DNA of 64,000 nt from Vulcanisaeta distributa JCM 11216 (lineage in GTDB: Archaea; Thermoproteota; Thermoprotei; Thermoproteales; Thermocladiaceae), in the NCBI RefSeq assembly GCF_001315985.1, contig NZ_BBBI01000010.1, positions 1 through 64,000 of the forward strand, in the 5' to 3' direction. Positions 1 to 64,000 of the stretch are shown here, one piece after another. Positions within the stretch are counted from its first letter, which is position 1, and each line of letters starts with the position of its first letter. A program made the position numbers and the translations under genes. The notes under the pieces were generated by a model. It worked only from the letters and a program-made list of their open reading frames with translations, did not search any database and had not been told where the DNA came from.

Positions 1-124
1 AGGGCCGTAAATAACCTTTGGGAATCCAGTACCCTAGTGGCCCAATACTCAATGCGCCTAAGGGCAAGGTCCCTATCAGTGAATTCAATCGTTAAATTGG
101 CGAAGCCAGCCTAACCCTCCTCAC
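1..124 (-). CDS. Start of a possible ATPase-like protein (cut by window edge)
   Basis: Read on the minus strand from a GTG at 124, a coding-like stretch runs off the window start. It begins VRRVRLASPI and, after a one-base shift near position 85, continues IEFTDRDLALRRIEYWATR. The pattern 'FTDR-x-LA-x-RRI-x-W' resembles the segment just before the Walker A loop of archaeal ATPase-family proteins, but the P-loop itself would lie outside the window. The call rests on this short resemblance only; the reading frame is broken once and no start signal is clear. Confidence 0.25.
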
Positions 125-382
125 AGTGATTATTCCTCATCCTCCCCCCCTTTAATACCTATTATCCGATTGAGGCGTTTTTCATCTCGCCGTCCTGGTT
201 TTAGGGCCTTCTTTAATTCCTCACTATTGATTCCATACCACATTACGGCCTAACCCGTCTTCTTCGACCTTCCCTAATATACGCGGTTATGCAGTGGCTA
301 TGCCTCACCAGTGTTGTTTCAGTCCGTTCTTAGCAGTAATGCTTAATTGTGCATGTTTCATAAAGTTAGTTAGTACTTACAT

Positions 383-1322
383 ATGGCCAGTGATATTGAC
401 AATAAATTACTGGACCTGGCCACCATAGTCATACCAACGCGGGATGAGGTTGAGGGTATTGGGCTTGTTCTTGATGAGTTGTTCGAAGTTGGTGTTTCTA
501 GGGAGAGGATTCTCGTCGTTGATGGTGGTAGTAGGGATGGTACTGTGGATGTGGCTATGAAGTACGGCGTCAGGGTTATTCAGCAGGAGGGTAGGGGGGG
601 TAAGGCCATGGCCATTTGGACGGCGCTGAAGTACGTGAATACGCCCTACATGCTCGTCATGGATGGTGACTACTCATACCCGGCCAAATACGTTCCGGAG
701 ATGGTTAGGGAGATAGTGAGGACGGGGGGGGCTGACGAAGTCATAGGCGTTAGAAGGCCATTGCCAGGCAGTCAGGGCTTCATTTATAGGTTTGGTAATA
801 AAATACTCACCTGGGCCTTCAACCTACTATTCGGCACGAAGCTTCATGACGTACTCAGCGGCATGTACATAATTAAGGCCGACTCGCTTAGGGATGCGGT
901 TGCGGAGGTTGGAGGCTTCAGTATTGAGGCTCATATAACGGCGCACATGGTTAGCACGGGTAGGGTCGTCAGGGAGGTGCCGATCGAGTATAGGCGCAGG
1001 GTTGGTAGGAAGAAGCTTGGCGTGAGGGGGGGGTGGGCTGAGGATATTCAGTGACATGGTTAGGCTAACCATTAGGTACAACCCAATGCTAATACTATTC
1101 CTACTGGGCGCACTCCTCCTCATTCCTGGCCTGGCCCTTGGCGCCTACGTTGGTTATTGGTACATATTCTACGGCATTAAGTACTACCTAAAGGGGGGGT
1201 TAATCGCCATAATAATGACCCTAATCGGCCTACAATTCCTCGGAATGGCCGCCATGGCAATATACATGAAAAGAATGGAGTACAGGCTCAGAAAGGCCAT
1301 TGAGTCATTACGCAGGGACTAA
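383..1322 (+). CDS. Polyprenol-phosphate glycosyltransferase (GT2, DPM/DPG-synthase-like), frameshifted
   Basis: Family 2 glycosyltransferase that transfers a sugar from a nucleotide donor to a dolichyl/polyprenyl phosphate at the membrane, a step of N-glycan or glycolipid assembly. The N-terminal part shows TIVIPTRDE, the acidic donor-binding motif VMDGDYSYP and LSGMYIIKADS. The C-terminal part (from ATG 1056 in another frame) has two hydrophobic helices, as in archaeal DPM-type enzymes with a membrane anchor. The two frames join at the G8 run 1026-1033. Dropping one G gives RGGGLRIFSDMVRLTIRYNP without a break, about 310 residues, the usual length. The ATG at 383 is the first start in frame. 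I am confident of the family and unsure of the sugar. Confidence 0.85.
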
Positions 1323-1367
1323 ACAACTCAATCAACCGCAACAAAACATGGCAAGGACGAGCACGGG

Positions 1368-1467
1368 TGGTGGGCCCGCGGGATTTGAACCCGGGACCTC
1401 CCGGTTATGAGCCTTACGCGGGGGGGCACATGCCCCAGGGCGCTCTACCTGGCTAAGCTACGGGCCC
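1368..1467 (-). tRNA. tRNA with CAT anticodon (elongator Met or Ile2), intron in the anticodon stem
   Basis: The minus strand folds as a tRNA. Acceptor GGGCCCG pairs with CGGGCCC, the D arm is GCTTAGCCAGGTAGAGC, the anticodon loop is CTCATAA with anticodon CAT, and an encoded CCA follows (1368-1370). The 5' anticodon strand CCCGG is split as CCC/GG by a 24-nt insert (1414-1437). This is a non-canonical intron near position 29/30, a type known from Thermoproteales. Inside the intron GGGGCA (minus strand) should pair with TGCCCC, but the C side has 7 C (1420-1426). The T stem lacks one base compared with the CCGGG/CCCGG expected. The CCCGG anticodon stem argues against the initiator tRNA; Met versus Ile2 cannot be decided by eye. 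Confidence 0.85.
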
Positions 1468-1598
1468 TGGCTTTAATGGTTTTATAGGGCAATTTTAAGT
1501 TTTTCGTATCGGAAATCGCTACGAGACAAAGCCGTGAGTCTCATGGCATTCGATTTTGAACCATTACGGCAGCCCTATTTTCTATAATGAATTCCTAT

Positions 1599-1784
1599 TT
1601 AATTCATTAATTGCGACTTTAATTCCAAAGCTTTGTCGTTGATGGTGTTTGTAATTTTCAATTCGAAGTCTAGGTTTATGAGTATTTCCCATAACCAATC
1701 AAGGGCTTTGTCGCAGGGTATTTTGCCCATCCTTGCCCTGCCAATTATTACTAGGGCCTCGTCAATGGCCTTTGTCGGGTTCAT
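1599..1784 (-). CDS. Small hypothetical protein (61 aa)
   Basis: Intact 61-codon reading frame with codon use like the neighbouring genes, beginning MNPTKAIDEALVIIGRARMG. A TAA lies a few codons upstream in the same frame, so the ATG at 1784 is the only plausible start. The protein looks all-helical and mildly acidic, with no motif I recognise. It stands alone between the tRNA and a larger minus-strand operon. It could be a small regulator or a remnant; no function is proposed. Confidence 0.45.
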   Translation of the reverse strand: MNPTKAIDEALVIIGRARMGKIPCDKALDWLWEILINLDFELKITNTINDKALELKSQLMN

Positions 1785-3015: not shown

Positions 3016-3047
3016 AAGCTGAGTAGTACACCGTGTTCATGAATAGA

Positions 3048-5500: not shown

Positions 5501-5880
5501 ATGTCGAGGGGGGGCTTCACCATAGGTGGTATCGTCGTACTCGCGCTGTTGATAGTCGCCGCATCCCTAGTAATATACCTAGTAAGTGATTACCTATACA
5601 CAGCGTACCAAGCATCATCAATGATGGGTAGGATAAACACGAGACTCACCCAATTGTCCAGGTCCTGCATTGCCTACCTAGTCAATGGCTCACTCTACTT
5701 TCCGTACGACGCGCACGTGGAGTACTCAATACCCAGCATGGTGGGTCCCGGCTACTACCATGAAATAAACCTCTCAGGCATTAACGGTGAAGCCTATTGT
5801 TCCTTGATGGCTGCGTGATTGTGGTTAAATCCACAGGTAATGCCACGGGTTACTGGGTGCCTGGTTATGGCCCTGGCTGA
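5501..5880 (+). CDS. Type-IV-pilin-like secreted protein, frameshifted
   Basis: The N-terminus reads MSRGG-FTIGGIVVLALLIVAASLVIYL, where the two Gly come from a G7 run. With G4 it is MSRG followed directly by a 20-residue hydrophobic helix, the class III signal pattern cut by archaeal prepilin peptidase. The visible frame stops at 5818. One missing base near 5806 continues it as DGCVIVVKSTGNATGYWVPG to a stop at 5880, about 126 residues. The outer part has two or three Cys and Asn-x-Ser/Thr sites. It overlaps the start of the long secreted gene downstream, so the two are probably co-translated. It could instead be a minor anchor protein with an uncleaved N-terminal helix. Confidence 0.6.
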
Positions 5881-8405
5881 CCTGGTCCTCGAGGGGCTCA
5901 CGCTGATACTGGCCATTGCACTTGGCCTGGTGCTAATTGGCGGTTTAACCTACCTAACAATCACCGTGTCAACAACCAACAACGCGAGGCTCGCTTACAC
6001 GGGCCTATACATATACCTGCCACAGCCTATCTACGTGAATGGGACACTGTACATACCGATGTACAACATTGGTTATTACAGGGCGGTGGTTAAGTACGTA
6101 TACGTCAAGGGCATCGACGGTTCAATCCATGAGTATGCACCAAACCTGGTGCTAGGCGTGAACCAGTACTACGTCTACACCCTAAGCCTAGGCTACGAAC
6201 CAACCTCAATAACCGTGCTAGCCTCACCAATGGATTACCCAGGCATTATTAAGGAATTCAGCGTCAACGTATCGACCGTGAACTCAATACCATTAATACC
6301 CCAGTCGCAATCACAACCCAGCTCCGGCCTCATAGATGTGACCGTCAACGACCCATACAACGCTGGATGGGAAGTCACGTGGAGCTACGCCGGTCAGTCA
6401 TACTCAGTGAGCCAGGCCCAGTCATACACCTGGTTCATAAACCCGCCATACGTGCCGATTCAAATAAGCTTCACGGCATCAATAACAAGCACGCCCAATG
6501 GGTACTACCAGTGCCAGGTAGTTCCTAGCCGAGTAGCAAATACGTACAACGCAGGAAGTGTGCAAGAGTTCAATGTTTTTTGTTACTCGGTGGTTATCCA
6601 GGTTAATGACCCATACGGCGCTGGCTGGTCGATAGGCCTAACCCCCCCAAGCGGCCTATCATGGAGCGGAAGCAGTACCCAAACAATTTACGTGAACCAA
6701 ACACTTAATTACCCACAAAGCGTCTCGGCCTCAATAACAAGCATACCGCCAGGCTATCAATCATGCAGCATAACCGGGCCCACGCAAATAACGGGCCCAG
6801 GTACGTACACATACAACGTACAGTGCCAAGGTGGCGTGCAAGTATACCTCAGCGTGACGTTCACGCCATACAAGAGCTACGTATGCACCTATTACGTCAG
6901 TGGAGATGCCTTATTACAATATCCAAACGGCACGCAGAAGTATTACTACATATTCTTCACGACCACAACCACGACCACAAAAACATACTATCTCTACAAC
7001 GGCCCACCAGGCGTTACCGTAAAATCCATCGACATTGATTATACTTCGTCCACGCTCTACAACGCTAATTGCGGAGATAGCGAAACTCAAAGCTACAACC
7101 CCAACCCACCAGTTACATTTGGCATCAATGGCGTATATACAATATATGGCAATGTAGCCGCAACATCATCGTCAAGCAATAGCGGTAGTAGCGGCTATGC
7201 AGAATTCTACCTAACAGTCAATGCGCCCAGCGGTTATTCCTGGACGGTAACCGCATCCGGCGCCGTGTCCGAGTCGGCCAGCGGGACCGGCCCAGTATCC
7301 AACTCATGGTGGTTCTCAATACACCCGACCAATAGCCCAATCTACTTCTCCGCGTCCAAAGGCTGCACTGTATCTCCATCAACCATCACGCCCAGTAGTG
7401 CCGGTAATTACTACGTGACCGTGAACTGCGGCGGCTCAAGCAGCTCCGGCTCAATAAGCGTCTCGGTCCAGGACTCCTACGGGGGGGCTGGTTGGTCAGT
7501 CTCCTGGAGCGGTGGGGGGGCTAGTGGGAGTAAGAGCGGCTCGAGCTCGGCATCCTGGTCTATAACGGCGTCGGGCACTGTGGACTTCACGGCCTTGATA
7601 ACCTCAAACCCAAGCAGCTACACATGCACAATAAGCCCAACAAGCACCAGCGCCAACCCAGGAGGCTCAGTAACATTCACAGTAAGCTGCACAAGCAACA
7701 ACCAACCACCGCCGAGTAAGTACTACTGCATCGTTAAGCCAAGCGCCGGTGATAATGTTGGGGGGGGTGCCTCTGGCGCGTATGTTAGTCCGTCAGGCAC
7801 GCAGTACCTCAGCCCCCGGGCAGTCGGAGTTGTTTACCTGGGGGGGTATACAGTATAACATAGTGACGTACCAGGGACAAACGTATTACTTCAATAATTG
7901 GGTGGTCACGCTCAATGGGCAGGCGGTAACCACCAGCCAATACAGCGGCGTGGGCTACACCTTCACCTGCAAGCAACCTAGGCAGTAACCAAACCTACAC
8001 CCTGAGCGGCACGGCGTATTACTACAAGAGGTACCTAACCGTCGGTGGGGGGGAACCACAATAAACGCGCCCGGGAACGGTACATACGCGCTGAGCAGCG
8101 TAACGACAGCGTACTTCACCTGGCAGGACCCAGAGTACATAAGCGGCTCGTGGAGCATAACCTATACGCCTGGCTCAACTTCATTGACCATAAGCGTGAC
8201 CCTCACAGACTATTACTCACAGAGCGGGACGGCCCCACAGCTCAGCGCCTCAACAACGCTCGACGTAAGCAGCCCAAGCGGCTACAACTGCAACATAGTG
8301 AGCGTATCACCAACGAGCGGCTCAACGCCAGGCTGGCAGGAAAGCAACTGGCTACCCAACGCATCAGTAACATTCCAATGCAACCCAAGCAGTAAATATC
8401 ATTAA
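5867..8405 (+). CDS. Large secreted protein with tandem Ig-like repeats, several frameshifts
   Basis: About 845 residues from ATG 5867 (overlapping the upstream gene by 14 bases). It opens with a hydrophobic helix (LTLILAIALGLVLIGGLTYL) and then a Ser/Thr/Tyr/Gly-rich exported chain. A domain of about 80 residues recurs: it starts V-x-DPY-x-AGW, contains a Trp-rich sandwich pattern and ends G-x-V-x-F-x-V-x-C. Copies begin near 6346, 6595, 7200 and 7450. A poly-Thr stretch (FFTTTTTTTKTYY) lies near 6955. Lesions: C5 at 7813-7817 (4 restores frame), a shift near 7970, and the G7 at 8046-8052 (5 restores frame). Likely a cell-surface adhesin, pilus-associated or S-layer-type protein. The paired Cys in each repeat suggest disulfides. 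Confidence 0.65.
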
Positions 8406-10356: not shown

Positions 10357-11592
10357 GTGGTTAATCCATTAGCCGGTATCGACATTGGTGAGTTGGCTAG
10401 GATTGTTAAGGGCTATGGCGCGTACTTCGGTGGTGCCGTTGGTTTCCCAATAGCCTTTAGGGATAGGGAGTTGGAGGTTGGGAGGCTTGTCGATAGGTTG
10501 GTTGGTGTTAGGGTTGTTTATGGGCCATTGGGTTGTGGTAAATCGACGCTACTCATGAACCTGGCCAGGGCACTCGGTGAGGTCAGGAGTGATGTCATAG
10601 TGATTTACGTTAATTTCGAGGAGTAGGGCTTCATGAACGCTGTCAGGGCTTATATACCCGGCCTAGCTGGTGGTGTTAGGGATTCAATAATTAGGCTGTG
10701 GAGAGGACTTGGGGGGGCCGGTACTTGATAGGGTTGGTCTTGGTGCGGTGGTTGGTGTTGGTAGGTTGTTTATGGACATCATTAGGGGGGGTGTGAGTGA
10801 TGAGGCGGTGATTAGGGATAAGTACGTTGTGCTCATATTTGATGAGCTGGATAAGTGGTATAGGTCCATGCTTAACGCATCCGACAATGCCCAGGTTGGT
10901 TATGGGCCTATTGAGGGTGAGGTTATGAGCTATGCGGAGCATTTTGAGAACTTCCCAACAATGGGCAAGGTCCAGGCTTATCTGTCGTGTTTGGCTTTAG
11001 TGACCAGGGCGCCGTCAATGTGGTTAGGAAGTATGGCGGCAAGGGGTTGCTTGAGGGGTTACTGCTCTGGTATATACCGAAGGCTGATTTCATGGACGTA
11101 CTCAACGAGGTAACAATGAGGGTTAGGCCAAGCGCCTCAATAGATGCTGAGCTTCTCTGGCAATTAACTGGCGGTAATCTCAGGGAGTTGGCGAGGATTG
11201 TGTTTAACAATGATTGGAGTATTGAGAAGTGGCTTAGGGACGTGATAATTAAGTTGAGTGGTGTTAATGGCGTACTGGCCTTCCTAGAGGAAGCCGGTAG
11301 GTATGGGCTCAACATCGCCGAGGCTAGAGCTCATGGGCTTGGCTATGTAGCCCGCATGGCCCTTGATGAGCTTCTTGCTATGAACGTTTTCCTTAACGTT
11401 TATGATTATGAGTTGAGACTGAGTGAGTTGCCTAATGAGCCCTGGGTTAGGGATGTGAATACGGGCAATGTAATAACCATACTGCCCCCCCAATTACCTG
11501 CTTATTACTGGGTGCTCAGGGTTATGGCGAGCAAGAGGTCAATAGGTGTTGAACCAAGTGACGTTATTAGGGAGGTTACCGAGAACGTTTAA
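10357..11592 (+). CDS. Archaeal AAA-type ATPase (P-loop), multiple lesions
   Basis: P-loop ATPase of about 410 residues. It has Walker A GPLGCGKST, Walker B VVLIFDELD and a C-terminal winged-helix-like part (LRELARIVFNNDW through LLAMNVFLNVYDYELRLSEL). Three lesions are visible: an in-frame TAG at 10624 inside NFEE-GFMNAVRAYIPGL, the G7 at 10711-10717 (6 joins RGLGGP to VLDRVGLG), and a one-base shift near 10980 (joining KVQA to VVFGFSDQGAVNV). The start is a GTG at 10357. The family is common and expanded in Sulfolobales and Thermoproteales, often near mobile or defence genes, and no substrate is known. Because one lesion is an in-frame stop and not a shift, this copy may be a genuine pseudogene. 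Confidence 0.65.
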
Positions 11593-19710: not shown

Positions 19711-20967
19711 GTGCCCTTTAGGGAGGACGTTGAATTAATCAGAGGCTCAAAGAGCAGGTTATTACAGGGTAAGAGGATTGCGCTCGCCTTAACTGGTGGG
19801 ATCTCCATTTATAGGGTCCCTGACATCGCTAGGGAGTTGATTAGGCATGGGGGGGCTGATGTGACCACGTTCATGAGTAAGGAGGCAAGTGAGTTACTTG
19901 GTCCAAGGGTCATGGAGTGGGCTACGGGCAATCCCGTATACGTGGAACTAAGTGGTTACGCCGAACACGTTAACATCTGCACAACAGCCAACGCAGTAGT
20001 TATTGCACCAGCCACGGCAAACACAATTAGTAAGATCGCCAATGGCATTGGTGATACCTCGGTAACCCTATGCGCAATGACAGCCCTCGGCTCAGGCGTG
20101 CCATTATTGCTCGTTCCAGCAATGAACGAGTCAATGTGGAGAAACCCAGTCATTAAGACAAACATTGAGAAATTGCGTAACTTAGGGGGGGTTCGCTTCG
20201 TTGAGCCCGTTATTGAGGAGGGTAAGGCTAAGTTGGCGCCTAATCAGGAGGTCGTTGACTCGGTAATTGATTTATTATCGCCGAGGGACATGGTTGGTTT
20301 ATCCGTACTTATTACCTCAGGTCCAACGCACGAGTACATCGATGCCACCAAGTACATAACAACACCGAGTAGTGGCTTAACGGGTTATCACTTTGCCAGG
20401 GAGGCGATGGCGAGGGGGGGTGCCAGGGTTACACTAATTGAGGGCCCGGTAGGCATTAGTGACCCACCTGGTGCTGAGATCTACAGGGTTAAGAGCGTCC
20501 TCGAGATGTATGATGTAGCCATTAAGCTAGTCAGTAAGCGCCATTACGATTTGGCAATACTCACGGCAGCACCACTCGACTTCTACGTTAAAGATCGAGT
20601 AAGCGGCAAATTAAGTAGTGACTTGGATAAGGTAGTCATTGAGTTAGTTCAAGCACCTAAGATTGCCAGGGATCTGAAGAAGTTCTCGCCAAGTACATTC
20701 TTAATAGCCTATAAGGCCGAGGTTGGGATCACGGAGGAGGAGTTAATCAACAAGACAATGAGGAGGGCTAGTGAGGGTGATTGGGACTTGGCGCTTGCGC
20801 ACTTGGTTGGTGAGGGTAGGGGGGGATTTGGCACTGAGAGGGATGAGGTACTCGTATTAGGTAAGGATAGGGTTATTAGGAGGATAGGCCCATTGCACAA
20901 GCGTGAATTGGCGAGGGAGGTACTAAGTTTATACCTATCCATGATTAGGCCACGTGCCAAGAGTTAG
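19711..20967 (+). CDS. coaBC: Phosphopantothenoylcysteine synthetase/decarboxylase (CoaBC)
   Basis: Bifunctional coenzyme A enzyme: the CoaC half decarboxylates phosphopantothenoylcysteine (FMN-dependent) and the CoaB half joins Cys to phosphopantothenate. Seen in order: ALTGGISIYRVPDIARELIR, the His of SGYAEHVNICT, APATANTISKIANGIGD, VPAMNESMW, then CoaB's LITSGPTHEYIDATKYITTP and AILTAAPLDFYV. Four seven-base G runs (19849, 20185, 20414, 20819) each add a Gly where the family has one (IRHGADV, LGVRF, ARGARV, GFGTERDEV). The gene is otherwise intact at 418 residues. The start is GTG 19711. Confidence 0.9.
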   Translation: MPFREDVELIRGSKSRLLQGKRIALALTGGISIYRVPDIARELIRHGGADVTTFMSKEASELLGPRVMEWATGNPVYVELSGYAEHVNICTTANAVVIAPATANTISKIANGIGDTSVTLCAMTALGSGVPLLLVPAMNESMWRNPVIKTNIEKLRNLGGVRFVEPVIEEGKAKLAPNQEVVDSVIDLLSPRDMVGLSVLITSGPTHEYIDATKYITTPSSGLTGYHFAREAMARGGARVTLIEGPVGISDPPGAEIYRVKSVLEMYDVAIKLVSKRHYDLAILTAAPLDFYVKDRVSGKLSSDLDKVVIELVQAPKIARDLKKFSPSTFLIAYKAEVGITEEELINKTMRRASEGDWDLALAHLVGEGRGGFGTERDEVLVLGKDRVIRRIGPLHKRELAREVLSLYLSMIRPRAKS

Positions 20968-30986: not shown

Positions 30987-33350
30987 ATGAGTAAATTGCC
31001 TCATTATCGGGAAGGTCTCCGTGCAGTGACTGGTTCTAGCGAGTACATTGATGATATACCCACACCGCCAGGCACGCTCTACATGGCGATTTACAGAAGC
31101 CCCCTACGCCCACGCCCGGATACTGAAGGTCGACCTGAGCGGGGTCTTTGAGCATGGAGGCATTGCCTACGGGCCCAGTGACCTGGCTAAGGTTATACCC
31201 AACCCATTCCCGCTCGCCGTGGATGTGCCGATTAAGTATTATCCATTTGCGCGGGATAGGGCTCGTTTTGTTGGTGAGCCGATAGCCGTTGTCCTTGCCG
31301 ATGACCCTTACAGGGCTATGGATCTTCTTGATTATGTTCAGGTGGATTTCGAGCCATTAAAACCTGTTCTTACGCTTGATGATGCGTTGAGAGGTGATGT
31401 TCTTGTTCATGAGGAGTTAAAGTCAAACGTAGCCATGTATAGGCACATGAAGTTTGGGCCTGTGGATAAGGCATTCTCTGAGGCTCCCGTGATTGTAAAG
31501 CGCGAGTTTTATTATCAGAAATATAATGCAATGCCCTTGGAAACCTATGGAGTTCTTGCGCATTACGTAAATGGGGAATTAAATGTTTGGGCTAATGTTC
31601 AAGGGCCAATGCTAATAGCGTACTTCATAACTAGGGCGCTGGGACTACCAACGGGTAGCCTTAGGCTCTTTGGCCCTAGGGACGTTGGCGGCAGTTTTGG
31701 TTCTAAGTATATGCTATACCCATATATAACCCTGGCCGCTGCGGCGTCAATACTTAGTGGCAGACCTGTTAAGTGGATTGAGGGCAGGACGGAGCACTTA
31801 ATTGGTAGCAACTCAGGTGGTGCCAGAAAGGGCGTTGTGGAGGTTGCGGCGACCAGAGATGGCATGATTCAGGGACTTAGGTATAGGTTTTATGAGGATG
31901 TTGGTGCGTATCCAAGGCCGCCTGATCCTGGCGTTCTATTTAGGGTTCATGGGAATATGAATGGGGCGTATGATGTTAGGGCCATTGAGGTTGAGGATTA
32001 CGTGATAGTCACAAATAAACTACCATCAGGCCTTAATAGGTCTTATGGCGGCCCACCGTTCTACTACATGCTTGAGGTTGCCGTCAATGAACTAGCCCGT
32101 GAACTAGGCGTGGATCCGCTCGAGCTCAGGATTAAGAATTTAATTAGGGAGTTCCCGAAGAAGATTGGTGATGAGTACTTCTACGAGACGGTCACAGGTG
32201 GCCTATACCCAAGGCAGGACTATGAGAGGGTCGTTAGGGCTATAGAGCCTGAGTATAGGCGTTGGCTTGAGGAGAGGAGGAAGAATCCGAATATTGGTGT
32301 TGGTATTGCAGTCCTCGTAGAGCCGGCGGGCACGAATTTAGGCTACACAGATTTAGCAATAGAACCAAGCAAGCGTAAATACCCACACTCGGCTCTGGTT
32401 CCTACGTAACAATCAGCCTTGACATGAGCGGGTACATTAGGGTTTTCGTTAATGGCACCAACGAGGGGGGGCTCGGTCACGAAACAACACTTGCCGAGGT
32501 TGTCGCCTCAGAACTGGGTGTCGACCCCTCAGTGATAATTGTTGAGAATAGGGTTGATACGACAAGGACGTGGGCACTATCGGATGGTTCATACTCATCT
32601 AGGTTCGCCCCCAATAGTGGTTAGTGCGGCTATACTTGCTGCGAGACAATTGAGGGAGAAGTTGACGAGAATAGCCATGGCAATGCTTGGTACGGATAAG
32701 GTTGGTTATGAGAATGGTCAGTTCTATGACATAAACAACCCAGGTAGGAGGATTGACATTAGGAGGATGACATCATCAGTTAATTGGGACCCAGGCTCAC
32801 TACCGGAGGGCTTGGACGCATCATTGAGCGCTACTGTGTTTTATCAGCCGCCAACGGTTAAGGCGGCAGAGGGTGATAAAATCAACTCATCAGCTACATA
32901 CGCAATACAGGCGCAGCTCGCCGTTATAGAGCTTGACCCAAACACGTACGACATTAAGGTTAGGAAGTACGTGATAGCCATGACGCTGGCAGGATACTCA
33001 AGAGGGAGTTTGTTGATGGTCAGTTGATGGGTGGTTTAATGCATGGTCTCGCCCTCACGCTTTATGAGGAATTGATGTATGATGATCAGGGTAACCCATT
33101 AACGACGAGTCTCGATATCTATGAAACGCCAACGCTTGCTGAGGCCGTGGGTATGGAGGTGGAGTTCATACACTTTGAAACACCCACGAAGCACCTAGTC
33201 TCTGGGGGGGCTCATGGTGTTGGTGAGGGGGGGGCCATGATGGGTGTGCCTGCGGCGATAGTCAATGCCCTGGCCTCAATAATTGGTAAAGCAGTAACGG
33301 ACTTGCCACTGAGGCCATATAAGATAATGAGGGCTGTCGAGGGGGGGTGA
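30987..33350 (+). CDS. Molybdopterin-binding large subunit of a xanthine/CO-dehydrogenase-family oxidoreductase, frameshifted
   Basis: About 787 residues, the substrate/Mo-site subunit of a molybdenum hydroxylase (aldehyde-oxidoreductase type). Seen: [96 protein letters not shown] and the C-terminal Glu region [20 protein letters not shown]. Four breaks: C5 31100-31104 (4), a lost G at about 32390, C5 32608-32612 (4) and a lost C at about 32980. The start is ATG 30987. The large-medium-small order follows. The substrate is not defined by sequence; glyceraldehyde-type oxidation as in other thermoacidophilic archaea is one option. Confidence 0.85.
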
Positions 33351-38998: not shown

Positions 38999-40326
38999 AT
39001 GGACCTACTTAAACTGCTCGAAGTCCTCGTAGAATTCAACACGGTGAATGACCCAGACAATGCTAAAATGCCCGACCCCGGCGTTGTTGATTTCGTCGAG
39101 GGCGTGTTGAATGGGCTTGGCGTTAAGACGAAGGTTCTTGTTAGTCATGGGTATAGGAGCGTGGTTGGTGTAGTTGGTTCTGGCGAGCCCCCCCGCGTAC
39201 TTCTTCTGGCGCACCTTGATGTTGTTCCGTTTATACGCAGTGAGTGGAAGTACGACCCGCTTAAGTTAACGGTTGAGGGTGACCTTGCCTATGGACGTGG
39301 TGCACTTGATGATAAGGGTAATGTAGCTGCCGTGCTCAGGGCGCTCGAGGACTTGGTGAGCATTGGTAGGGGTACGGTTATTGCGGCGTTCACCACGGAT
39401 GAGGAGATTGGCGGTGAGAATGGAGCTAAGACCGTGAGGGATTACCTATTGGGTAATGGTCTTAGACCTAACTATGTCATTAATGCTGATGGGAACTCGA
39501 TGGTCATTATAAATAGGAGGAGGGCGATATTCAATGCCAGGGTTAGGTCTAGGGTTGAGAAGGCGGTGGTCAATGGGCGTAGGGAGACCATTAGGTTTCA
39601 ACTTGATTATAAGGTCACGCCTCCATACCACGCCGCTTACTTCGTACACGGCGTGGATACGCACCCAGTCATTGCCCTCTCCCAATACGTATGGCTCAAC
39701 AACGCGTACGTAATTAGCCTTAGGGGGTAGCTTTGTCAAGAGTAATGTCACGCCCACCTGGATTGAGGCTGACGTGGTCAAGCCCTGCGGCGATTGCCCA
39801 CAGCAGGAGGTTGATGTGGGGCTCACAAGGCTCATTAGGCCTTACTTCCGTTGACTAGGTTCGTACCTAAGGTCAAGGCTCAGAGCGTTTATGCGTCACA
39901 GCAACACCAAACGTGTATCGGGTTGTCGGTGATTACCACGAGTTCGTGGTTAATGTCAGGGCCATGACTGATGATACGAAGGCCATTGAGGAGGCAATGA
40001 ATGAGGCGTTGAGGGAGGATTTCCAGGGAATTGAGGTTAGGGTCGAGGGTGAGGGTGGTGGGGGGGGTTACTTGTATACTCCGCGTGATTCAAGGCTCGT
40101 TAAATTAGCCAGCGAGGTACTTAATGAGCTTAGTCTTGAGGCTAGAGTCATGGAGATGGCTGGTGCAAGTGATGCAAGGTACTTCTCACCACTCGGTATT
40201 GAGACAATGGACTTCGGACCGATAGGCGGCAATGAGCATGGGCCTAATGAGTACGTGAGCGTGAAGTCCCTGGAGTTGACGAGCAGGTTTTACTCGTTGT
40301 TGGTTAGGCGGTTGATTTCTTTATGA
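38999..40326 (+). CDS. M20-family metallopeptidase/deacylase (ArgE/DapE-like), frameshifted
   Basis: About 440 residues. Zinc and catalytic motifs: LLAHLDVVPFIRSEWKYDPL (H-x-D), YGRGALDDKGNVAAVLRALE (D-D-K) and FTTDEEIGGENGAKTV (E-E). The C-terminal His region is GGNEHGPNEYVSVKSLELTS. Breaks: G5 39723-39727 (4 gives LRGSFVKSNVTPTWIEADVV) and two shifts between 39850 and 39900 (LTRFVPKVKAQSVYAS, then TATPNVYRVVGDYHEF). Three lesions within 200 bases is high even for this window. Starts four bases after the RecA-like gene stop. Substrate (an N-acyl amino acid or peptide) unknown. Confidence 0.78.
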
Positions 40327-47200: not shown

Positions 47201-48628
47201 TTACCTTAATAATTGATTAACAATGCCTATTGCATTATTTATCAATTCCTCAACCCTACCCGCACTAAGGGCCTCACTATAAATCCTCAACTTGGGTTCT
47301 GTGCCACTACCCCCCCTAATTAGGACCCAGGAACCATCACCAAACACAACCTTAACACCATCAATAGTTACGGGCCTTGGATTCGGACCTAACGAGCTAA
47401 GCATCTTAAGAAGTGTGTCCTTATTGTCATTTACAAACTTCTTTGAATTCCTCATGTCCAAGTCAACCCTCTTGAAGTAAGCCCTACCGTACTTGCTCCT
47501 AACATCGCTCACCAGGTTTGTTAGGCCTCCGTACTCAGATGCCATGGCTATTATTAGAGATGCCGTGTATATACCATCCTTATCAGGTATGTGCCATGAA
47601 TACACAAGGCCACCGCTCTCCTCACCACCCATGTCGGCCTCTCTATTCAGTATTGCCCTGGCCACGTACTTAACACCCACCGGAACCTCAACGATCTTAA
47701 AGCCGTACTTGGCAGCTATGTTGTCAAGTATGTGCGTTGTGGATACCGTCCTAACAACACCCGTCTTTATTATTGATGCAGAGGCCAACCTCTCGACTAC
47801 TATTGGCAGTATGTCGTTAGCGCTTAAGTAACCGTGAATCCTATCAACTAGGGCTATCCTGTCTGAGTCACCATCATGCGAAATGCCGATGTCGTACTTA
47901 CCAGCCGTCACCTCCTGGATGAGCTCGGGTATGTTTTGCGGCTCTGGGTTTGGGTCCCTGCCTCCGAAGCTTGGATCGTAATTATTGTGAATCTCCGTAA
48001 CCTCCATGCTGAGTCTCCTCATAACCTCACTCGTGTAGCCTATTGAGGTTGCGTAGATCGGATCAATGATTACCTTGAACCTACTCCTTGGCCTGAACAT
48101 TTTGGTTACGCTTTCATAGACGTAGTTAATATACTCGGGAGCTGGATCCACGGTGGGTATTGGCCTTAATTCAATGGTATTAACCGATTTATTAATATCA
48201 TGCCACTCCTCATTATATAATCTTTCTATTTCCTCCGTATCCTCCTCCTGAACCGGTGATCCCCCCCTGCTTGTTATTACCTTAAAGCCGTTGTATATTG
48301 ATGGATTATGACTGGCCGTGATCTGAATAACAAGGTCAAAACCGAACCTAAAGCCGTACCAGGCAGCCGCCGGGGGGGTTGGTGTTGGCTTATTAACCGT
48401 AACGACATCTAACCCGTGGTTTACAGCCACGCTGGCTGCAATGTACGCGAAGTCCTTAGACTTCCTCCTGGCGTCGAAACTTACCAAGACCCTACGTAAC
48501 CCATACCTACGTGACCAATAACGAAAAGTCGACTCAGCAAGCACGGCAACCAAGAACTCCGTGAACTCCGTATCAATAACACCACGCACGCCATCTGTTC
48601 CAAAATGAAACGTGAGTTTATCGTTCAT
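47201..48628 (-). CDS. Phosphohexomutase (phosphomannomutase/phosphoglucosamine mutase)
   Basis: Intact 475 residues. The four family sites are present: active-site Ser loop QITASHNPSIYNGFKVITSR, Mg site GISHDGDSDRIALVD, sugar loop ADMGGEESGGLVYSWH and phosphate loop LIRGGSGTEPKLRIYSE. The runs add residues in SRGGSPV, TPTPPAAAW and RGGSGTEP; all known enzymes have a single residue before SGTEP. It interconverts hexose-6- and hexose-1-phosphates for glycan and nucleotide-sugar synthesis, fitting the neighbouring glycosyltransferase. Confidence 0.92.
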   Translation of the reverse strand: MNDKLTFHFGTDGVRGVIDTEFTEFLVAVLAESTFRYWSRRYGLRRVLVSFDARRKSKDFAYIAASVAVNHGLDVVTVNKPTPTPPAAAWYGFRFGFDLVIQITASHNPSIYNGFKVITSRGGSPVQEEDTEEIERLYNEEWHDINKSVNTIELRPIPTVDPAPEYINYVYESVTKMFRPRSRFKVIIDPIYATSIGYTSEVMRRLSMEVTEIHNNYDPSFGGRDPNPEPQNIPELIQEVTAGKYDIGISHDGDSDRIALVDRIHGYLSANDILPIVVERLASASIIKTGVVRTVSTTHILDNIAAKYGFKIVEVPVGVKYVARAILNREADMGGEESGGLVYSWHIPDKDGIYTASLIIAMASEYGGLTNLVSDVRSKYGRAYFKRVDLDMRNSKKFVNDNKDTLLKMLSSLGPNPRPVTIDGVKVVFGDGSWVLIRGGSGTEPKLRIYSEALSAGRVEELINNAIGIVNQLLR

Positions 48629-48663
48629 TACTTAAGACCTATTAAACAACCCTTAAATTAATT

Positions 48664-49773
48664 TTATCCCTCTGCATTATCATGAAAAAGCTCCTTAACC
48701 ACGCTCAACCATTCATTGACTACCCTAGGTACACTAAAGGCCATAGCCCTCTCCCTAGCCCTAGCCCTCATTAAATTATCATAATTACCCTCCCACAGTT
48801 TAACCGCCAACCTAACAAACTCCCCCCCTGGATTATCCACCAACCAACCCGTCTCATTATTAATCACTGTCTCCCCCCCTGGACCTTGCCTACCATAGGT
48901 GAGGACTGGCGTGCCGCATGCCATAGATTCAACCGGTACATACCCAAAGGGCTCATGAATGAATGGAAATACCGTAAACTTCGCGTTGGCGTATAACTTA
49001 ACCAACTCCTCATCACTGACCCTACCTCTATAATCAATGTTCCTATGCCTAACGAACCAACGCGGCAGCCAGGGGGGGACCTTGGAGCCGAAGGCCACTA
49101 TCCTTATCCCCCCCGCATTGGCCATGGCCCTAAGTACATTAAATTGGGTCTCCTTACCCACGTAGGTCAACACATAGTCCTGGGTGGGGGGGTTGGGCAC
49201 GGGTTTAAAGAAGTCCGTATTCACCGGCGGATTTATCACACCCCCCCAAACCCTAACGTTTCTTGATATTACAGCTTCCGCTGAGTACCTCGAGTTGGCT
49301 ATTACGTATTTAGAGCGTGATAGTGCCCTATGGTATGTAGAATCCGCGGCAATTATTAGTGGTGTTGCAAGGTAATAACCCAGCCTATAGTGTATTGGGA
49401 ATTCCCTACTTAAATCCCTGAGTAGGTCACCTACGTAGCCCTGCGCATAGAATATGGTTGCTGGTATTGGTAACTCAAAGGATAGATTTATTGTTAGGCA
49501 ATCATCGCGATAATTGATCAAACCCCTTATACCATTCATTAGCCATATTAAAAAATGCCCAGACTGCCCAGAAAGCGGAGGCCTTAGTCCAAGGTCCCTT
49601 ACCTTAATACCTACGTACTCAAGGTCCTTCTCAACCTCTTTACTCACATATGGCGCAACAACATTAACGTTAAATCCCATCTCAATGATTGACTTACCGA
49701 GTAAATAGGCAACCCTAATTGGCCCCCCCGTTATCCCATCAATCCCGTCAGTTATCAATGATATGCATGGCAT
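48664..49773 (-). CDS. Glycosyltransferase family 4
   Basis: Intact 369 residues from ATG 49773. GT-B fold with acceptor-side TGGPIRVAYLLGKSIIEMGF and donor-side LVKLYANAKFTVFPFIHEPF, GYVPVESMACGTPVLTYGRQ (E-x7-E). Seven-base runs occur at several places (VWGGVINPP, PNPPTQD, NAGGIRI, VPPWLP, NPGGEF), none breaking the frame. It lies 36 bases from the phosphohexomutase start and two bases from the gamma-CA-like stop, forming a probable three-gene minus-strand operon. Confidence 0.85.
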   Translation of the reverse strand: MPCISLITDGIDGITGGPIRVAYLLGKSIIEMGFNVNVVAPYVSKEVEKDLEYVGIKVRDLGLRPPLSGQSGHFLIWLMNGIRGLINYRDDCLTINLSFELPIPATIFYAQGYVGDLLRDLSREFPIHYRLGYYLATPLIIAADSTYHRALSRSKYVIANSRYSAEAVISRNVRVWGGVINPPVNTDFFKPVPNPPTQDYVLTYVGKETQFNVLRAMANAGGIRIVAFGSKVPPWLPRWFVRHRNIDYRGRVSDEELVKLYANAKFTVFPFIHEPFGYVPVESMACGTPVLTYGRQGPGGETVINNETGWLVDNPGGEFVRLAVKLWEGNYDNLMRARARERAMAFSVPRVVNEWLSVVKELFHDNAEG

Positions 49774-49775
49774 GG

Positions 49776-50315
49776 TTATAGGTTAACCCCCCCATTGTCC
49801 ATGTACATCCTCGCAAGCCTTAGGTAGGCCTGGTAATTATTCCTAATGTACTCCCTATCCGCATCCGTGGCCTGCCTAATTACCTTGGCAGGCACACCAA
49901 CAACAATACTATTGGGTGGTACCTTAGTTCCCTGGGTAACTACGGCGCCAGCCCCCCCCACAATACTACCACTGCCAATTACTGCTCCATTTAGGACTAT
50001 GGCGCCCATACCTATTATTACCTCATCCTCCACCGTGGCGCCATGCACGATAGCCCTATGCCCAATGGTGACGCCACGCCCGATCCTAGCTGGAAAACCA
50101 ACGTCTGTATGTATTACAGCGCCATCCTGAATATTCGAGCTATCGCCAATCACTATGCTATCCTCATCACCCCCCCTGATGACGGCGTGGGGCCAGATAC
50201 TCACGTTATCCCCCCCAATAACCACGTCCCCCCCAATTACGTAGGCCGTACTCGCTATGAAGACGTTCCTGCCAATCCTAGGCACCTTATCCCCCCCAAC
50301 CCTCACGATGGGCAT
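49776..50315 (-). CDS. Gamma-carbonic-anhydrase-like hexapeptide-repeat protein
   Basis: 179 residues of left-handed beta-helix: SIWPHAVIRGGDEDSIVIGD, SSNIQDGAVIHTD, RGVTIGHRAIVHGATVEDEV. The conserved R-G-D, the metal-His region (HTD, GHRAIVHG) and NIQDG match the gamma-CA/YrdA/CaiE group. Six runs of 7-8 bases add Gly at rung borders (VGGD, IGGD twice, RGGD, VGGAG). The hexapeptide register returns when each is shortened by three. Metal-dependent CO2 hydration is possible; many relatives have unknown substrates. Confidence 0.85.
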   Translation of the reverse strand: MPIVRVGGDKVPRIGRNVFIASTAYVIGGDVVIGGDNVSIWPHAVIRGGDEDSIVIGDSSNIQDGAVIHTDVGFPARIGRGVTIGHRAIVHGATVEDEVIIGMGAIVLNGAVIGSGSIVGGAGAVVTQGTKVPPNSIVVGVPAKVIRQATDADREYIRNNYQAYLRLARMYMDNGGVNL

Positions 50316-50415
50316 AGCCTAGTCATTAATCTGCATTATTTAAAGTATTAAGGCATACATCACGTAAAGTAATGCCGCTTAAACGCTTAAAAGGCATTGA
50401 GCAGTCATTGATTGC

Positions 50416-52546
50416 ATGCCTAGGATTGATGTACTCAATGCATTGCTTGGTAGGGGCGGATTCCTAGATGATTATCCGTATAAGGGGAAGTTCGGAGTAT
50501 TCATTAGAAGCCCATACCCACACGCCAGGGTACTAAGTATTGATGCATCAAAGGCCGTTAGCGAGGGAGCCCTCGTACTCACTGGTAAGGACTTCATAGC
50601 GAGAACCCTGGGCTCGACAGAGAGGGAGGGTGCCGGTCTCGAGACATTGCCTTTGGCAGTAGATAAGGCCCGTTACCAAGGCGAACCGGTGGCCCTAGTG
50701 ATTGCTGATGATCCTACAGGGCCATGGATTTGGCGGAACTCGTTGATGTTCAGTATGAACCGCTAAAGCCCGTGCGTAATATAGATGACGCCTTGAAAAA
50801 CGAGTCACTGGTCTTCGAGGAGTTGGGTACTAATATCGTTCAATCGCAGGTGATTGAGTACGGCCAAATGCCCAGTGGGCCAAGGGAATTAGAGCTTAAC
50901 CTTTATTGGTCAAGGAGTTCTGGAAACCCCATAGAGACCTTCGCAGCCATAGCATACCCGGAGGGTAATGGAGTCACAATAATTTCCAACCTGCAGGGAG
51001 GTAAATCAATAACCGCCGAGATAGAGAGGTCGCTGGGTATACCCATTAAGCATGTCCCGGTGAGGCATGGGGGGGGTAGCTTCGGCTCTAAGTTCTCCCT
51101 AGTCAGGTACTTAATAATCCTGGCATACGCCGCCTATAAGTTTAAGACGCCGATTAAGTGGGTTGAGACGAGAACCGAGCACCTAATGGCATCCAACTCA
51201 AGTGGACCCGAGAGGAGGTTTAGAATTAAGGCTTACTTTGACGGTGACGGCATTGTCAAGGGACTGGACATCAGTATTTGGGAGGACGCGGGCGCCAGCA
51301 GGAGTAGTGGACAGGCCTTTAAGCCCCCCCTGGGAATATTGGCTGGTCCGTACAAGATTAGGAACCTGAGGTATAACGCCACGGTCGTGGCAACCAACAA
51401 GAACCCCCCCGCAGGCGCCTTTAGGTGCTGGAACGCCCCCCCTCATACCTGGGCTTTGGAAAGAGTCATGGATGCGATAGCTGATGAGCTCAACGTGGAT
51501 CGGGCGGAGGTAAGGAGGAGGAACTTAATTGATTCATTCCCGTACGAGGCACCCTACGCGTATTATGACTCAGGTAATCCAAAGGGGCTTCTCGAGCTCG
51601 CCCTGTCGCGCAATGACCTATTCTCCCTGAGGGATGGGAATACGGGCGTTGGTATTGCCGTGTCGACAGACCCGTCAACGCCGCAGGGTACTGAGGGTAT
51701 TAAGTTGAGGATTAGGAATGGTAAGATAGTCGTGGGTCTTGGGTTTGGTGGTGAGGGCCAGGGTAATGAACACACGGCTGTTAAGCTCGTGTCCCAACTC
51801 CTCGATGTGCCCATGGATTGGGTCACCTATGAGTACTTACCAAGTGATGAGAGCCCGGAGGCCTTTGGGCCTGGTGGTAGCCGCATGGCAGTGTTCACGG
51901 CAGGTGCCGTGCTTGGCGCTGTCGAGGAGTTGAGGGCTAGGTTGTATAATAAGGCCGTTAGGGTGCTCGGCAGTAACATTACGTATGAGAGGGGGGGTAC
52001 TTCCGCTCTAGTGATGGTAGGAAAGTCAGTATTCTCGAGCTTGGCGATGAGGAGGTCACCTTCACATACACCGCGGAGGCGAAGATCGGTAGGTACATAG
52101 CATACCCATTTGCCTGTGACATTGCCGTTGTTAGGTATGAGGATGGCAGGCTTAAGCCCATTAAACACGTGGTTTATCTTGACCCGGGCAATGTAATAGA
52201 TGAGGAGCTCGTTAAGGAGCAGGTAATGGGTGGCACCGCGATAGGAATATCATTGGCGCTTTACGAGGCTTACAGGTATGATGAGGACGGCAACCTACTA
52301 ACACTGAGCTTCGGTGATTATGGGCTGCCAACGGTCATGGACATACCGGAGATTGAGGTTCATCTTGTCCCATCACCATCCCCCCCGGTGACTCCAATGG
52401 GTGTTAAGGGGATTGGTGAGGTGCCCGTGGGCGTGGCCGCGGCTGCCGTGACAAGCGCCGTGGAGGACATACTAAGGAGGAGGGTTGGTAAGGTTAGGAT
52501 TGATAAGGTGCCCATTGACCCAGCATTACTTACACAAAGTATTTAA
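50416..52546 (+). CDS. Second molybdopterin-binding large subunit (xanthine/CO-dehydrogenase family), frameshifted
   Basis: Paralogue of the gene at 30987, about 708 residues from ATG 50416. Seen: IRSPYPHARVLSIDASKAV, KARYQGEPVALVIADDP, VRHGGGSFGSKFSLVRYLII, KWVETRTEHLMASNSSGPER, AGAFRCWNAPPHTWALERVM and VKGIGEVPVGVAAAAVTSAV. Breaks: a lost C at about 50717 ([20 protein letters not shown]) and G7 51991-51997 (5 gives YERGYFRSSDGRKVSILELG). Near the C-terminus the usual GEGG Glu is GIGEVPVG. No FAD or 2Fe-2S subunit gene is adjacent, unlike the first copy, so it may share those subunits or have another role. Confidence 0.8.
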
Positions 52547-59511: not shown

Positions 59512-59521
59512 GGTGGTGGCC

Positions 59522-60853: not shown

Positions 60854-60948
60854 TTTAATAAATATCATATATAGTCCTAGATAGTACTACTTTTAACACT
60901 CTTAAATGGTGCTAAGACTTAAATATAGGCTTTCTCGACACGTCATTA

Positions 60949-61239
60949 ATGGAAAGGCCACAACAACCAATGAAGGTACTGCAAAAAATGGTTGGCAAGC
61001 ACATAACCATAAGGCTTAAGAACAATAAGGTATTGAGGGGGGGTGTTCTCGTGAATTACGACGACTGCATGAACCTAATAATTGACGAAGGTGAGGAACT
61101 CGATCAGAAGGGTGAGAATGTGGTTGTTAAATACGGCAGATTAGTGATTAGGGGGGGTACGCAAGTGCTGTATATAACGTCTGAAGAAACAATGGGTGAT
61201 GGGCATGGCCAGGACAATAACAATAAACACAATAGATAG
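60949..61239 (+). CDS. Lsm/Sm-like archaeal RNA-binding protein
   Basis: Intact 96 residues. Sm1: KHITIRLKNNKVLRGGVLVN, YDDCMNLIIDEGEEL. Sm2: YGRLVIRGGTQVLYIT. Both Gly-Gly pairs come from seven-base runs where Sm proteins have one Gly (LRG-VLVNYD, VIRG-x-VLYI), and the VIRG turn is structurally fixed. It forms a ring that binds U-rich RNA. The His/Asn-rich tail overlaps the following mat gene by about 41 bases. Confidence 0.9.
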   Translation: MERPQQPMKVLQKMVGKHITIRLKNNKVLRGGVLVNYDDCMNLIIDEGEELDQKGENVVVKYGRLVIRGGTQVLYITSEETMGDGHGQDNNNKHNR

Positions 61240-62440
61240 GAAACCTGTTTCAGAATTGAATGTGGAGTTAGTGGAGAGGAAGGGCCTTGGGCACCCAGAC
61301 TACATAGCGGATGCTTCGTCCGAGGCCGTTAGCAAGGCCTTGTCTAATTACTACCTTGAGAAGTACGGTATAATCCTACATCATAACGTAGATAAGGTAC
61401 TCATTGTTGGCGGCCAGGCTAATCCACGGTTTGGCGGTGGCGATATTATTCAACCAATATACATACTCGTCGCTGGTAGGGTGACAACCGAGGTTAGGAC
61501 CGCCACGGGCGTTGAGAAGGTGCCGATAGGCACGATAATAATATCGGCAATTAGGGATTGGATTAAGAATAACTTTAGGTTCCTTGATCCGGATAAGCAC
61601 GTGGTCATTGATTATAGGGTTGGCATGGGCTCGACGGACTTAGTTGGTGTTTATGAGCTTGGTGTTAAGGCAACGAGGATACCGTTAGCCAATGACACTT
61701 CAATTGGCGTTGGGTTTGCGCCATTAACTGACACGGAGAAGCTAGTACTTGAGACTGAGAGACTACTTAACTCCAGGGAGTTTAAGGCCAAGCTCCCTGA
61801 GGTTGGTGAGGATGTTAAGGTAATGGGGGGGCTGAGAATTGGTAAGGACGTTAAGTTAACGATAGCCTCAGCAATAATTTCATCCCTAGTTAAGGATAAG
61901 GACCACTACCTAAATATTAAGGAGGAGATCAAGAATAAGGTGCTTGACCTAGCCACAAAAATCGCGCCTAATCTAACTGTTGATGTTACCGTTAATGCCG
62001 CCGACAAGCCAGAGCACGGTATATTCTACTTAACGGTGACTGGCACGTCTGCAGAGCACGGCGATGATGGAGCCACTGGACGTGGTAATAGGGCCAATGG
62101 ATTAATAACACCAATGAGACCCATGACCATGGAGGCCACGGCAGGCAAGAACCCAGTTAGCCACATTGGTAAGCTTTACAACGTACTCGCCAATAAGATT
62201 GCTGAGAGGATCTATGGCGAGGTTAAGGGATTGAAAGAAGTCTACGTCTACCTATTAAGCCAAATTGGTAAGCCAATTAATGAGCCCCCCCTGGTTGCGA
62301 ATGTGGAGGTTCTTCCAGAGCCTGGCGTCACATTGAGCGGTGAGGTTAGGAATGAGATTGACGGCATAGTTAATGAGGAGCTCGATAACATAACATCACT
62401 GACCGAGCTCGTAGTTAAGAGCAAGGTGTCGTTATTCTAA
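61199..62440 (+). CDS. mat: S-adenosylmethionine synthetase, archaeal type
   Basis: Intact, about 413 residues. Family segments: [80 protein letters not shown] and [20 protein letters not shown]. Makes S-adenosylmethionine from Met and ATP, relevant to the radical-SAM and Tsr3 enzymes encoded here. Starts at 61199 or 61205 are both possible. The seven-base runs in VMGGLRIG and NEPPLVA keep the frame. Confidence 0.93.
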
Positions 62441-64000
62441 CACACCACTCCTCAAACGCCTATACTCATTTATCATCTTTCTTAACTGATCCTCATCAAG
62501 GGCACTGAGGAATTCCCTACCAAGGGATTCAATGGCATTATTAATAATAGACCTATCAATGAATAAGACCTCACTTAATGAACCGTTATAAACCATGCCG
62601 ATGGGTATAACCCTCAAACCCCCCCTCTTCCATATTGGCCTTAGCATGCTCTTTTCAGTAATATCGATGAGAACCACGGAGTTTATGCCGATGCTTATTA
62701 ACTTATCAATACCCACACTCATTAACTCCCCAACACTCATCACAAGGATGGAATTATGTATCTGAGCCACTGAGTTAAGGTCGAGCCCCTCGGAGTACCT
62801 TATCAACACGTACTTACTACCCCTTAAGTACTCAAGGAAGTCATTCATTAGAGTCCTCATGTTACTCTCAAGCTCCTTAATCCTAAGCTTATACTTCTCA
62901 ATATCGCCCTCAAGCATGTCAATCCTGGCGTACAACGACCTAACGACTTGGTCCTTCCTAACCTCAGCATCGTAATTATTAATCAACTCCTCAAGCTTCT
63001 CCTTAGTCTCGCTATATAGCTTATTCAATCTCTCAATCTCAGCATTTAAAGTCCTTATCATGCTCTCATACTCCTCACGCAATTTATCACAATCGCACTC
63101 ACACCTCTCAGTAGTCAGTAGCCTGACCTCCTGCTGTGGTTGAACATCAATCCTCCTACTAACCTCATCAATTGCCTGCCTTATTGACGCACCCTTAATA
63201 ACGAGGGCCTTCGCATCATCAATAGCCTTGGCATAAGCCTCCTGACCTCCTCCTCAACCCTATCAAGCTTAGGCTTCAACTGAATGAATGCCTTATAGGC
63301 CGCCGCCAGGGCATCCCTCATGTGTGGGTCCTTAACGGCGATTCCCTGCTCACGGGAAATCTTAATTGCGATCTCGCTCTTCTCGGCAATGCTCAGGTCC
63401 CTATCTGGGTAGTAAATCACTGCACCAACCATTGCAGCCAACTTCTTGGCATAGTCTGAGGGTTTGGCTGTATCCACAGCAACTAGGACTGGCGTACCGT
63501 ATTGATACACAATCCTAAGCACATGCCTCCTACTCAGGTTCTTACCGCTTTGCAGTGTCAGCACGTTACCGTTTAGGTCAAGAACGGCCACCCCAGTGAC
63601 TATGCCTGGGTCAATGCCAATAATCAGCTTCCTATCCTTAGCAGTACTTATGCTCTCAGCACCCTCCTGCTCCGTTAATCCAACGAACTTTATTGAGTCC
63701 GTTGGTACTGACTCTATTATCACCTTAACATCCATACTCTTACGCGGCTTAACCACGGACCTAACGAGACTCCTATCAGCATATACGATGAATACCACGG
63801 ACCTCAACCCCTCACTCTCCGGTGTTATGAACATGTCATAATCAAGGCCATTACTCTCCAACCTCTCCCTAATCTCCTTAGCCAAGTACCTAATCCTATG
63901 GGCAATATTCCTCTCGAACCTATTCCTACTCATGCCGCCCGGCGTGGTCGATATCGCGGCCTTAACAATTATCTTAGTCTCAGGCTCATAAACCTTAACA
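62432..64000 (-). CDS. DUF460 protein (RNase H-like domain plus coiled coil), runs off the window
   Basis: The gene is open to the window edge, so its start lies outside. It reads KVYEPETKIIVKAAISTTPG, then NRFERNIAHRIRYLAKEIRE. An RNase H/RuvC-like core follows: RKLIIGIDPGIVTGVAVLDL, VLVAVDTAKPSDYAKKLAAM and KDPHMRDALAAAYKAF (three acidic sites). A lost G at about 63236 breaks the frame; restored, it continues RRAYAKAIDDAKALVIKGAS and a Cys-rich ERCECDCD before a coiled coil (EEYESMIRTLNAEIERLNKL). The C-terminal globular part ends at 62432, overlapping the convergent mat stop. Conserved archaeal family; role in DNA or RNA processing inferred only from the fold. Confidence 0.8.

Follow-up and report, generated by a model that had tools for sequence, protein, structure and literature searches.

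The seven-base G and C runs that recur throughout the window analysed here, a 64,000-nucleotide stretch of a Vulcanisaeta draft assembly (G000; 2.42 Mb in 65 contigs, completeness 67.75%), are sequencing miscounts of runs that are truly four or five bases long. In this window, G runs of 4, 5, 6, 7 and 8 bases number 46, 12, 3, 77 and 12, respectively, and the corresponding C runs 42, 17, 2, 52 and 2, with no G/C run of at least nine bases. There are therefore 143 G/C runs of seven or eight bases (2.2 per kb) and only five of six; this two-humped length spectrum is confined to G and C, whereas the counts of A and T runs fall smoothly and look normal. Under Markov models of order 1 to 3 of the same sequence, seven-base runs would number approximately 4-8 for G and 2-4 for C, with counts falling smoothly, which rules out a chance origin. 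The effect extends beyond the window to the whole 2.42 Mb genome, where runs of exactly seven G number 2522 on one strand and 2281 on the other. An initial annotation of this DNA had described G/C runs expanded to 7-8 throughout, at two to three long runs per kb, and the spectrum bears out both statements; its figure of about 45 long runs in the first 17.6 kb was somewhat high, the recount being 40.

The true lengths were obtained by alignment with five clean relatives (G002, G003, G004, G007 and G010), of which the complete genome of V. souniana JCM 11219 (G010, 2,432,148 bases) is approximately 81% identical to the window over its longest alignment and was ruled out on that ground as the origin of G000. 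Ninety long runs of the window could be compared, and 89 are four or five bases in the relatives, as the initial annotation had proposed, with a single exception of three and none longer. Of 150 G/C four-base runs in G002, 73 read seven and 57 read four in the affected sequence, while G/C three-base runs (896/914) and A/T four-base runs (101/103) are almost all unchanged; in two control comparisons four-base runs were kept in 35/35 and 29/30 cases. Runs with differing flanking bases in the two sequences were excluded, here and in the rRNA comparison below; interrupted runs were tallied apart here and excluded from the latter. Four-base runs mostly become seven or remain four, with some fives, and runs of five and six often become seven or eight, eight being the maximum, so that the previously suggested +3 is the commonest change and preserves the reading frame, but does not describe the effect completely. 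G/C runs of at least four bases are about as dense in the window (approximately 40 per 10 kb) as in G002 (41), G003 (36), G007 (48), G010 (35) and G004 (36), indicating that old runs were made longer and no new ones created. Rows of A/T runs reading seven in G002 and six in the source genome suggested under-calling of long A/T runs in the latter; this was dropped, since G002 lacks A/T runs of six and has a surplus of seven, and the error is probably its own.

Individual sites are collected in Table 1. The four coaBC runs (gene named from NCBIfam TIGR00521) lie where the initial annotation placed them, and three have four bases in clean relatives, the run at 20185 doing so only in an affected genome. 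Both of its intact G4 examples exist, the second one base downstream of the reported 39368-39371. A tRNA gene is among the sites, and a C4 beside its lengthened run, at 1433-1436, is not lengthened.

Table 1. G/C runs of the window and their lengths in related genomes (bases).
Feature	Position	Strand	Comparison
Whole window: 143 G/C runs of 7-8	1..64000		truly 4-5 where a clean relative is comparable (one is 3)
G7 in coaBC	19849..19855	+	4 in G002, G007 and G004
G7 in coaBC	20185..20191	+	4 in affected genome G008; uninterrupted in no clean relative
G7 in coaBC	20414..20420	+	4 in G003
G7 in coaBC	20819..20825	+	4 in G003
G7 in tRNA gene (1369-1468, minus strand)	1420..1426	+	GGGG in G002 and G007
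G4 at true length	11043..11046	+	of the G4 pair 11043-11046 and 11055-11058, one is 4 in G002 and the other is interrupted there
G4 at true length	39369..39372	+	4 in G002

The lengthening ignores function, affecting rRNA loci, a tRNA gene and protein genes alike and breaking reading frames. In the SSU locus of G000, 14 of 31 four-base runs read seven, as do 25 of 46 in the LSU locus of G008, a second affected genome. Of 16 G007 genes located in the window, 9 are broken across reading frames, compared with none of 28 when the same search is made in G003 (ORFs of fewer than 120 aa and hits below 60% identity excluded).

Three of 25 family genomes, from two genera, carry the effect (G000, G008 and G020), as do two of 398 genomes in a phylum sample that did not include the third; this distribution rules out a clade trait. 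The closest relative, 94.5% identical, is without it. The two other affected genomes match JCM drafts, V. distributa JCM 11217 (BBBJ) and Thermocladium modestius JCM 10088 (BBBF), whose accessions belong to one neighbouring series, and BBDN and BBDM, from the same culture collection, are without the effect in the loci compared. Judged on the BBBJ and BBBF matches, with the batch of G000 left aside, the effect follows sequencing batch and not phylogeny. For a sister accession of these two, BBBK (V. souniana JCM 11219), the stated platform is the Ion Torrent PGM (PMC9872577); the same strain also has an Illumina and Nanopore sequence, AP026830. Completeness of the three affected assemblies is 67.75, 67 and 47%, probably reflecting broken genes rather than missing DNA; low completeness alone is no marker of the effect, as the unaffected G002 (63%) and G006 (54%) are also low.

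Whether a run reads four or seven depends hardly at all on neighbouring bases. With 663 fours and 1141 sevens in 548,560 bases and 15 bases examined on each side, 2 of 30 positions reached p<0.05 (+4, p=1.2e-3; +14, p=0.028), about the chance level apart from +4, and sequence context was ruled out as the decider. Neighbouring runs carry a clear signal: in this test, restricted like the previous one to runs of exactly four or seven, pairs of the same base within 200 bases are correlated at 0.28, 0.19 and 0.29 in G000, G008 and G020, and G-C pairs at -0.22, -0.34 and -0.29, with at most 1 of 2000 permutations as extreme. The correlations decay over 250, 306 and 286 bases, respectively. In the window alone the same-base correlation is significant, unlike the opposite-base correlation (-0.07, 56 pairs; 600/2000 permutations). 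Errors at neighbouring runs are linked across roughly the span of a read, and the read strand would determine the sign. The pattern, in which like runs match and G runs differ from C runs until the effect fades at approximately 250-300 bases, fits the over-calling of one nucleotide combined with a locally dominant strand, and gives the miscount a mechanism that was beyond the reach of the initial annotation. Small correlations that remain at longer distances count against this explanation.

As judged from the consensus sequence, the runs are very probably a base-calling artefact of flow-based sequencing, with the Ion Torrent PGM as the most likely instrument. Reads a few hundred bases long would over-call homopolymers of at least four of one nucleotide, G or C but not both, to approximately 7-8, presumably through a miscalibrated flow of that nucleotide at some software step. 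Reads covering a G run would then give seven on one strand and approximately four on the other, where the run is seen as C, and the consensus would adopt the strand better represented locally. This would account for the observation that about half of the G/C four-base runs read seven and about four in ten stay at four, for G and C alike and with little influence of context. The source assembly, BBBJ and BBBF would all have been made from PGM reads, a platform stated for BBBK only. A homopolymer recalibration step with a threshold of four exists in the PGM pipeline. The chances are about even that the effect constitutes a distinct error mode of that pipeline, in which per-nucleotide homopolymer recalibration from length four upwards went wrong for G or C in one culture-collection batch, recognisable from a finished assembly alone, with no need of reads, by the sign-flipped correlation of neighbouring G and C runs.

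The PGM errors described in PMC3623719 are similar in that inaccurate flow calls give wrong homopolymer lengths, indels and frameshifts in assemblies, and in that high-frequency indels are systematic and mislead assembly, their strand asymmetry having also been addressed. The differences are considerable, however: there, short homopolymers are over-called, longer ones mostly under-called, and A or T flows are the most error-prone, whereas here G/C runs of at least four mostly become seven across the genome, A/T runs are normal, and the errors hardly depend on context and follow their local neighbours in a strand-signed manner. That published signature is not found here, and a three-base jump in G/C is thus not the usual PGM error. 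No account of a four-to-seven G/C-run error was found in the parts of the open-licence literature to which the search was limited.

This atypical jump in relation to that source, and the fact that the instrument cannot be told from the consensus alone, leave some small weight on an artefact of different origin, such as another flow-based platform, a long-read basecaller, or a polishing or consensus program mis-sizing G/C runs. Such an origin is improbable given the PGM stated for BBBK in the same accession series, and the decay over approximately 250-300 bases in all three genomes suits short single reads, not reads of many kilobases. A fault introduced at file level after assembly, for instance a faulty conversion rewriting G/C runs, would suit the strong quantisation of the change, with nothing above eight, but would be expected to treat all four-base runs alike. 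Approximately four in ten remain unchanged, however, and whether a run reads four or seven tracks other runs up to a read length away, positively for the same base and negatively for its complement, making such a fault extremely improbable.

The artefact favoured over biology by the initial annotation is supported by the relative alignments, the restriction to 3 of 25 genomes, the rRNA loci and the frame splits. A real, lineage-specific expansion of G/C runs in the three archaeal genomes, whose proteins would then tolerate additional Gly or Pro, would explain why the commonest change preserves the reading frame. Such an expansion is hardly credible, as the change also affects rRNA loci and a tRNA gene, is absent from the closest relative, is scattered over two genera and breaks genes, and we know of no process that would set nearby G and C runs at odds up to a distance of 200 bases but no further.

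As the long G/C runs are sequencing error, the finding concerns data quality and not biology. Each of the three affected assemblies is the sole genome of its species in the collection searched, which holds one per species, and it would be unsafe to infer gene loss, gene fission, pseudogenes or Gly/Pro insertions from these assemblies. The neighbour-run test could flag further affected drafts.

The run-length spectrum of the window confirms the observation of the initial annotation that seven-base runs of G or C are numerous across it. G runs of four, five, six, seven and eight bases number 46, 12, 3, 77 and 12, and C runs 42, 17, 2, 52 and 2, so that each of these bases shows two humps, which A and T lack. 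Markov models trained on the window sequence predict only approximately 4–8 seven-base runs of G and 2–4 of C. There are 143 G/C runs of seven or eight bases in the window, 40 of which lie in the first 17.6 kb. The densest 4-kb bin is 48001–52000, with 20 such runs versus 3 to 14 in the other fifteen bins. The same spectrum is recovered from 25 further stretches (484,560 bases, pooled) of this genome (G000), a draft of 2,422,819 bases in 65 contigs with 67.75% completeness. The S-adenosylmethionine synthetase of the window has its five best named matches in Vulcanisaeta, which places the genome in that genus.

Two other genomes carry the effect: G008, which is 100% identical over 4,001 bases to Vulcanisaeta distributa JCM 11217 (accession prefix BBBJ), and G020, which is 100% identical over 19,901 bases to Thermocladium modestius JCM 10088 (BBBF). 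Exact seven-G runs on the two strands number 2522 and 2281 in G000, 2031 and 1826 in G008, and 4190 and 3768 in G020; there are at most 63 per strand in the remaining 22 genomes of the family, and fewer than 200 on each strand in the others of a 398-genome phylum sample that includes G000 and G008 without G020. The prefixes BBBF, BBBJ and BBBK adjoin, and the platform of BBBK, a draft of V. souniana JCM 11219, is given as Ion Torrent PGM (PMC9872577). We infer that BBBF, BBBJ and G000 are also PGM assemblies. In BBDN and BBDM, which come from this culture collection too, the loci examined lack the effect.

The true run lengths were sought by aligning the window to five relatives without the effect, a long run being comparable where at least one relative has an uninterrupted run between identical flanks. 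This held for 90 of the 143 long runs, with 22 having only interrupted runs in the relatives and 31 not comparable. The longest relative run is four bases at 81 sites, five at eight and three at one, in agreement (89/90) with the four or five originally proposed. One of the five, G002, has errors of its own, but G003, G004, G007 (matched to V. distributa IC-017) and G010 (matched to the complete V. souniana IC-059) likewise show four or five at fewer sites, the exception being a single three in G003. In G002 (Vulcanisaeta sp. JCM 16159), 94.5% identical to the window without gaps, 150 G/C four-runs correspond in G000 to 57 runs of four, 16 of five, one of six, 73 of seven, two of eight and one of three; 896 of 914 G/C three-runs remain three and 101 of 103 A/T four-runs remain four. 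Four-runs of G007 are read in G008 as seven at 43/76 and four at 26/76 in one comparison, and at 18/30 and 10/30 in another. Against G017, probably the MAG Thermocladium sp. UBA166, G020 reads four-runs as seven (32/71) or four (27/71), five-runs as eight (10/21) or seven (5/21), and five six-runs as six (two), seven (one) and eight (two). In controls, four-runs of G007 are kept at 35/35 in G002 and 29/30 in G003. These run-by-run comparisons with G002, G007 and G017 show a sharp lower threshold at a run length of four and a ceiling at eight.

The effect is not selection on reading frame, since rRNA loci are affected and genes are broken. Over the 2,620 bases of the SSU rRNA locus of G000 and its flanks, seven is read at 14/31 four-runs. 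The 16S core GGGGATTAGATACCCC is generally regarded as universal; it is found in the SSU rRNA of G002 and G007 and becomes G7 and C5 in G000. The SSU locus of G020 reads seven at 18/32 four-runs, and the LSU locus of G008 reads seven at 25/46 four-runs and seven or eight at 15/19 five-runs; in the control, G002 versus G007, 77/80 four-runs are kept over the SSU locus and flanks. Among G007 ORFs for which 85% or more of the length was recovered in the target, 9/16 are split over frames in the window versus 0/28 in G003, with one further partial in each. Split ORFs in the window also make up 8/15 of those from G003 and 19/53 of those from G002, the latter with four further partial. The two open frames listed below as partial matches to a molybdenum hydroxylase large subunit are probably parts of genes split by the artefact.

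Features of the window discussed in the text
Feature	Window position	Strand	Remarks
tRNA gene	1369–1468	−	contains G7; GGGG in G002 and G007
679-aa open frame	5819–7858	+	unmatched in Pfam and NCBIfam at E 0.001
Open frame, partial match to molybdenum hydroxylase large subunit	31048–32409	+	best match glyceraldehyde dehydrogenase alpha, profile 35–453 of 741
Open frame, partial match to molybdenum hydroxylase large subunit	50724–52100	+	best match glyceraldehyde dehydrogenase alpha, profile 120–564 of 741

ARAGORN in bacterial mode calls the tRNA gene as a 100-base tRNA-Thr(TGT) and calls no gene in the G002 copy. By our own reading, made from no program, it reads as an elongator tRNA-Met (CAT) with a putative intron helix GGGG/CCCC, here G7/C4. 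The C4, thirteen bases from the G7, is not lengthened, making this one case of disagreement between G and C.

The choice between four and seven hardly depends on the 15 bases to either side. If the flow of a single nucleotide were over-called, G runs would be too long in the reads of one strand and C runs in those of the other, and the consensus at a run would be set by local strand coverage; nearby like runs would thus agree and G and C runs disagree, up to the read length. A neighbour-run test (runs of four or seven, pairs within 200 bases, 2000 permutations) was designed for this prediction, the record of which was written afterwards. In G000 (548,560 bases, 1,805 runs) the same-base correlation is 0.28 (814 pairs) and the opposite-base correlation −0.22 (443 pairs), with 0/2000 permutations as extreme for either. 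The corresponding values are 0.19 (319 pairs, 1/2000) and −0.34 (162 pairs, 0/2000) in G008 (907 runs), where an earlier, smaller sample (391 runs) gave weaker, uneven correlations, and 0.29 (840 pairs, 0/2000) and −0.29 (629 pairs, 0/2000) in G020 (1,258 runs). The window alone gives 0.38 for same-base pairs (93 pairs, 0/2000) and only −0.07 for opposite-base pairs (56 pairs, 600/2000).

Both correlations are approximately zero from 300 bases on in all three genomes. Fitting the decay shape A(2/pi)arcsin(1−d/L), with A and L free, yields an L of 250 bases in G000, 306 in G008 and 286 in G020, and the pooled fit gives 275; the bootstrap intervals are rough because pairs share runs. Small, unexplained remainders are a same-base 0.14 in the window alone (800–1600 bases, 4/2000), a same-base −0.08 in G000 and −0.09 in G008 (400–800 bases), and an opposite-base −0.05 in G020 (800–1600 bases, 5/2000); weak unexplained effects also occur at 1.6–20 kb in G008 and 5–20 kb in G000.

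A three-base jump in G/C is not the usual PGM error, as published work on this platform describes longer homopolymers as mostly under-called and A/T flows as error-prone (PMC3623719). The jump is suggested to be a batch-specific calibration fault. G002 has a homopolymer fault of its own, which may be a second such calibration error: over 60 kb it lacks A/T runs of six bases while those of seven are too frequent, 8/250 G/C three-runs are read as two relative to G007, and 7/18 G007 genes are split over frames in it. The artefact favoured by the initial annotation is supported, with a proposed mechanism now added, and the lengthened G/C runs are not genuine features of this organism.
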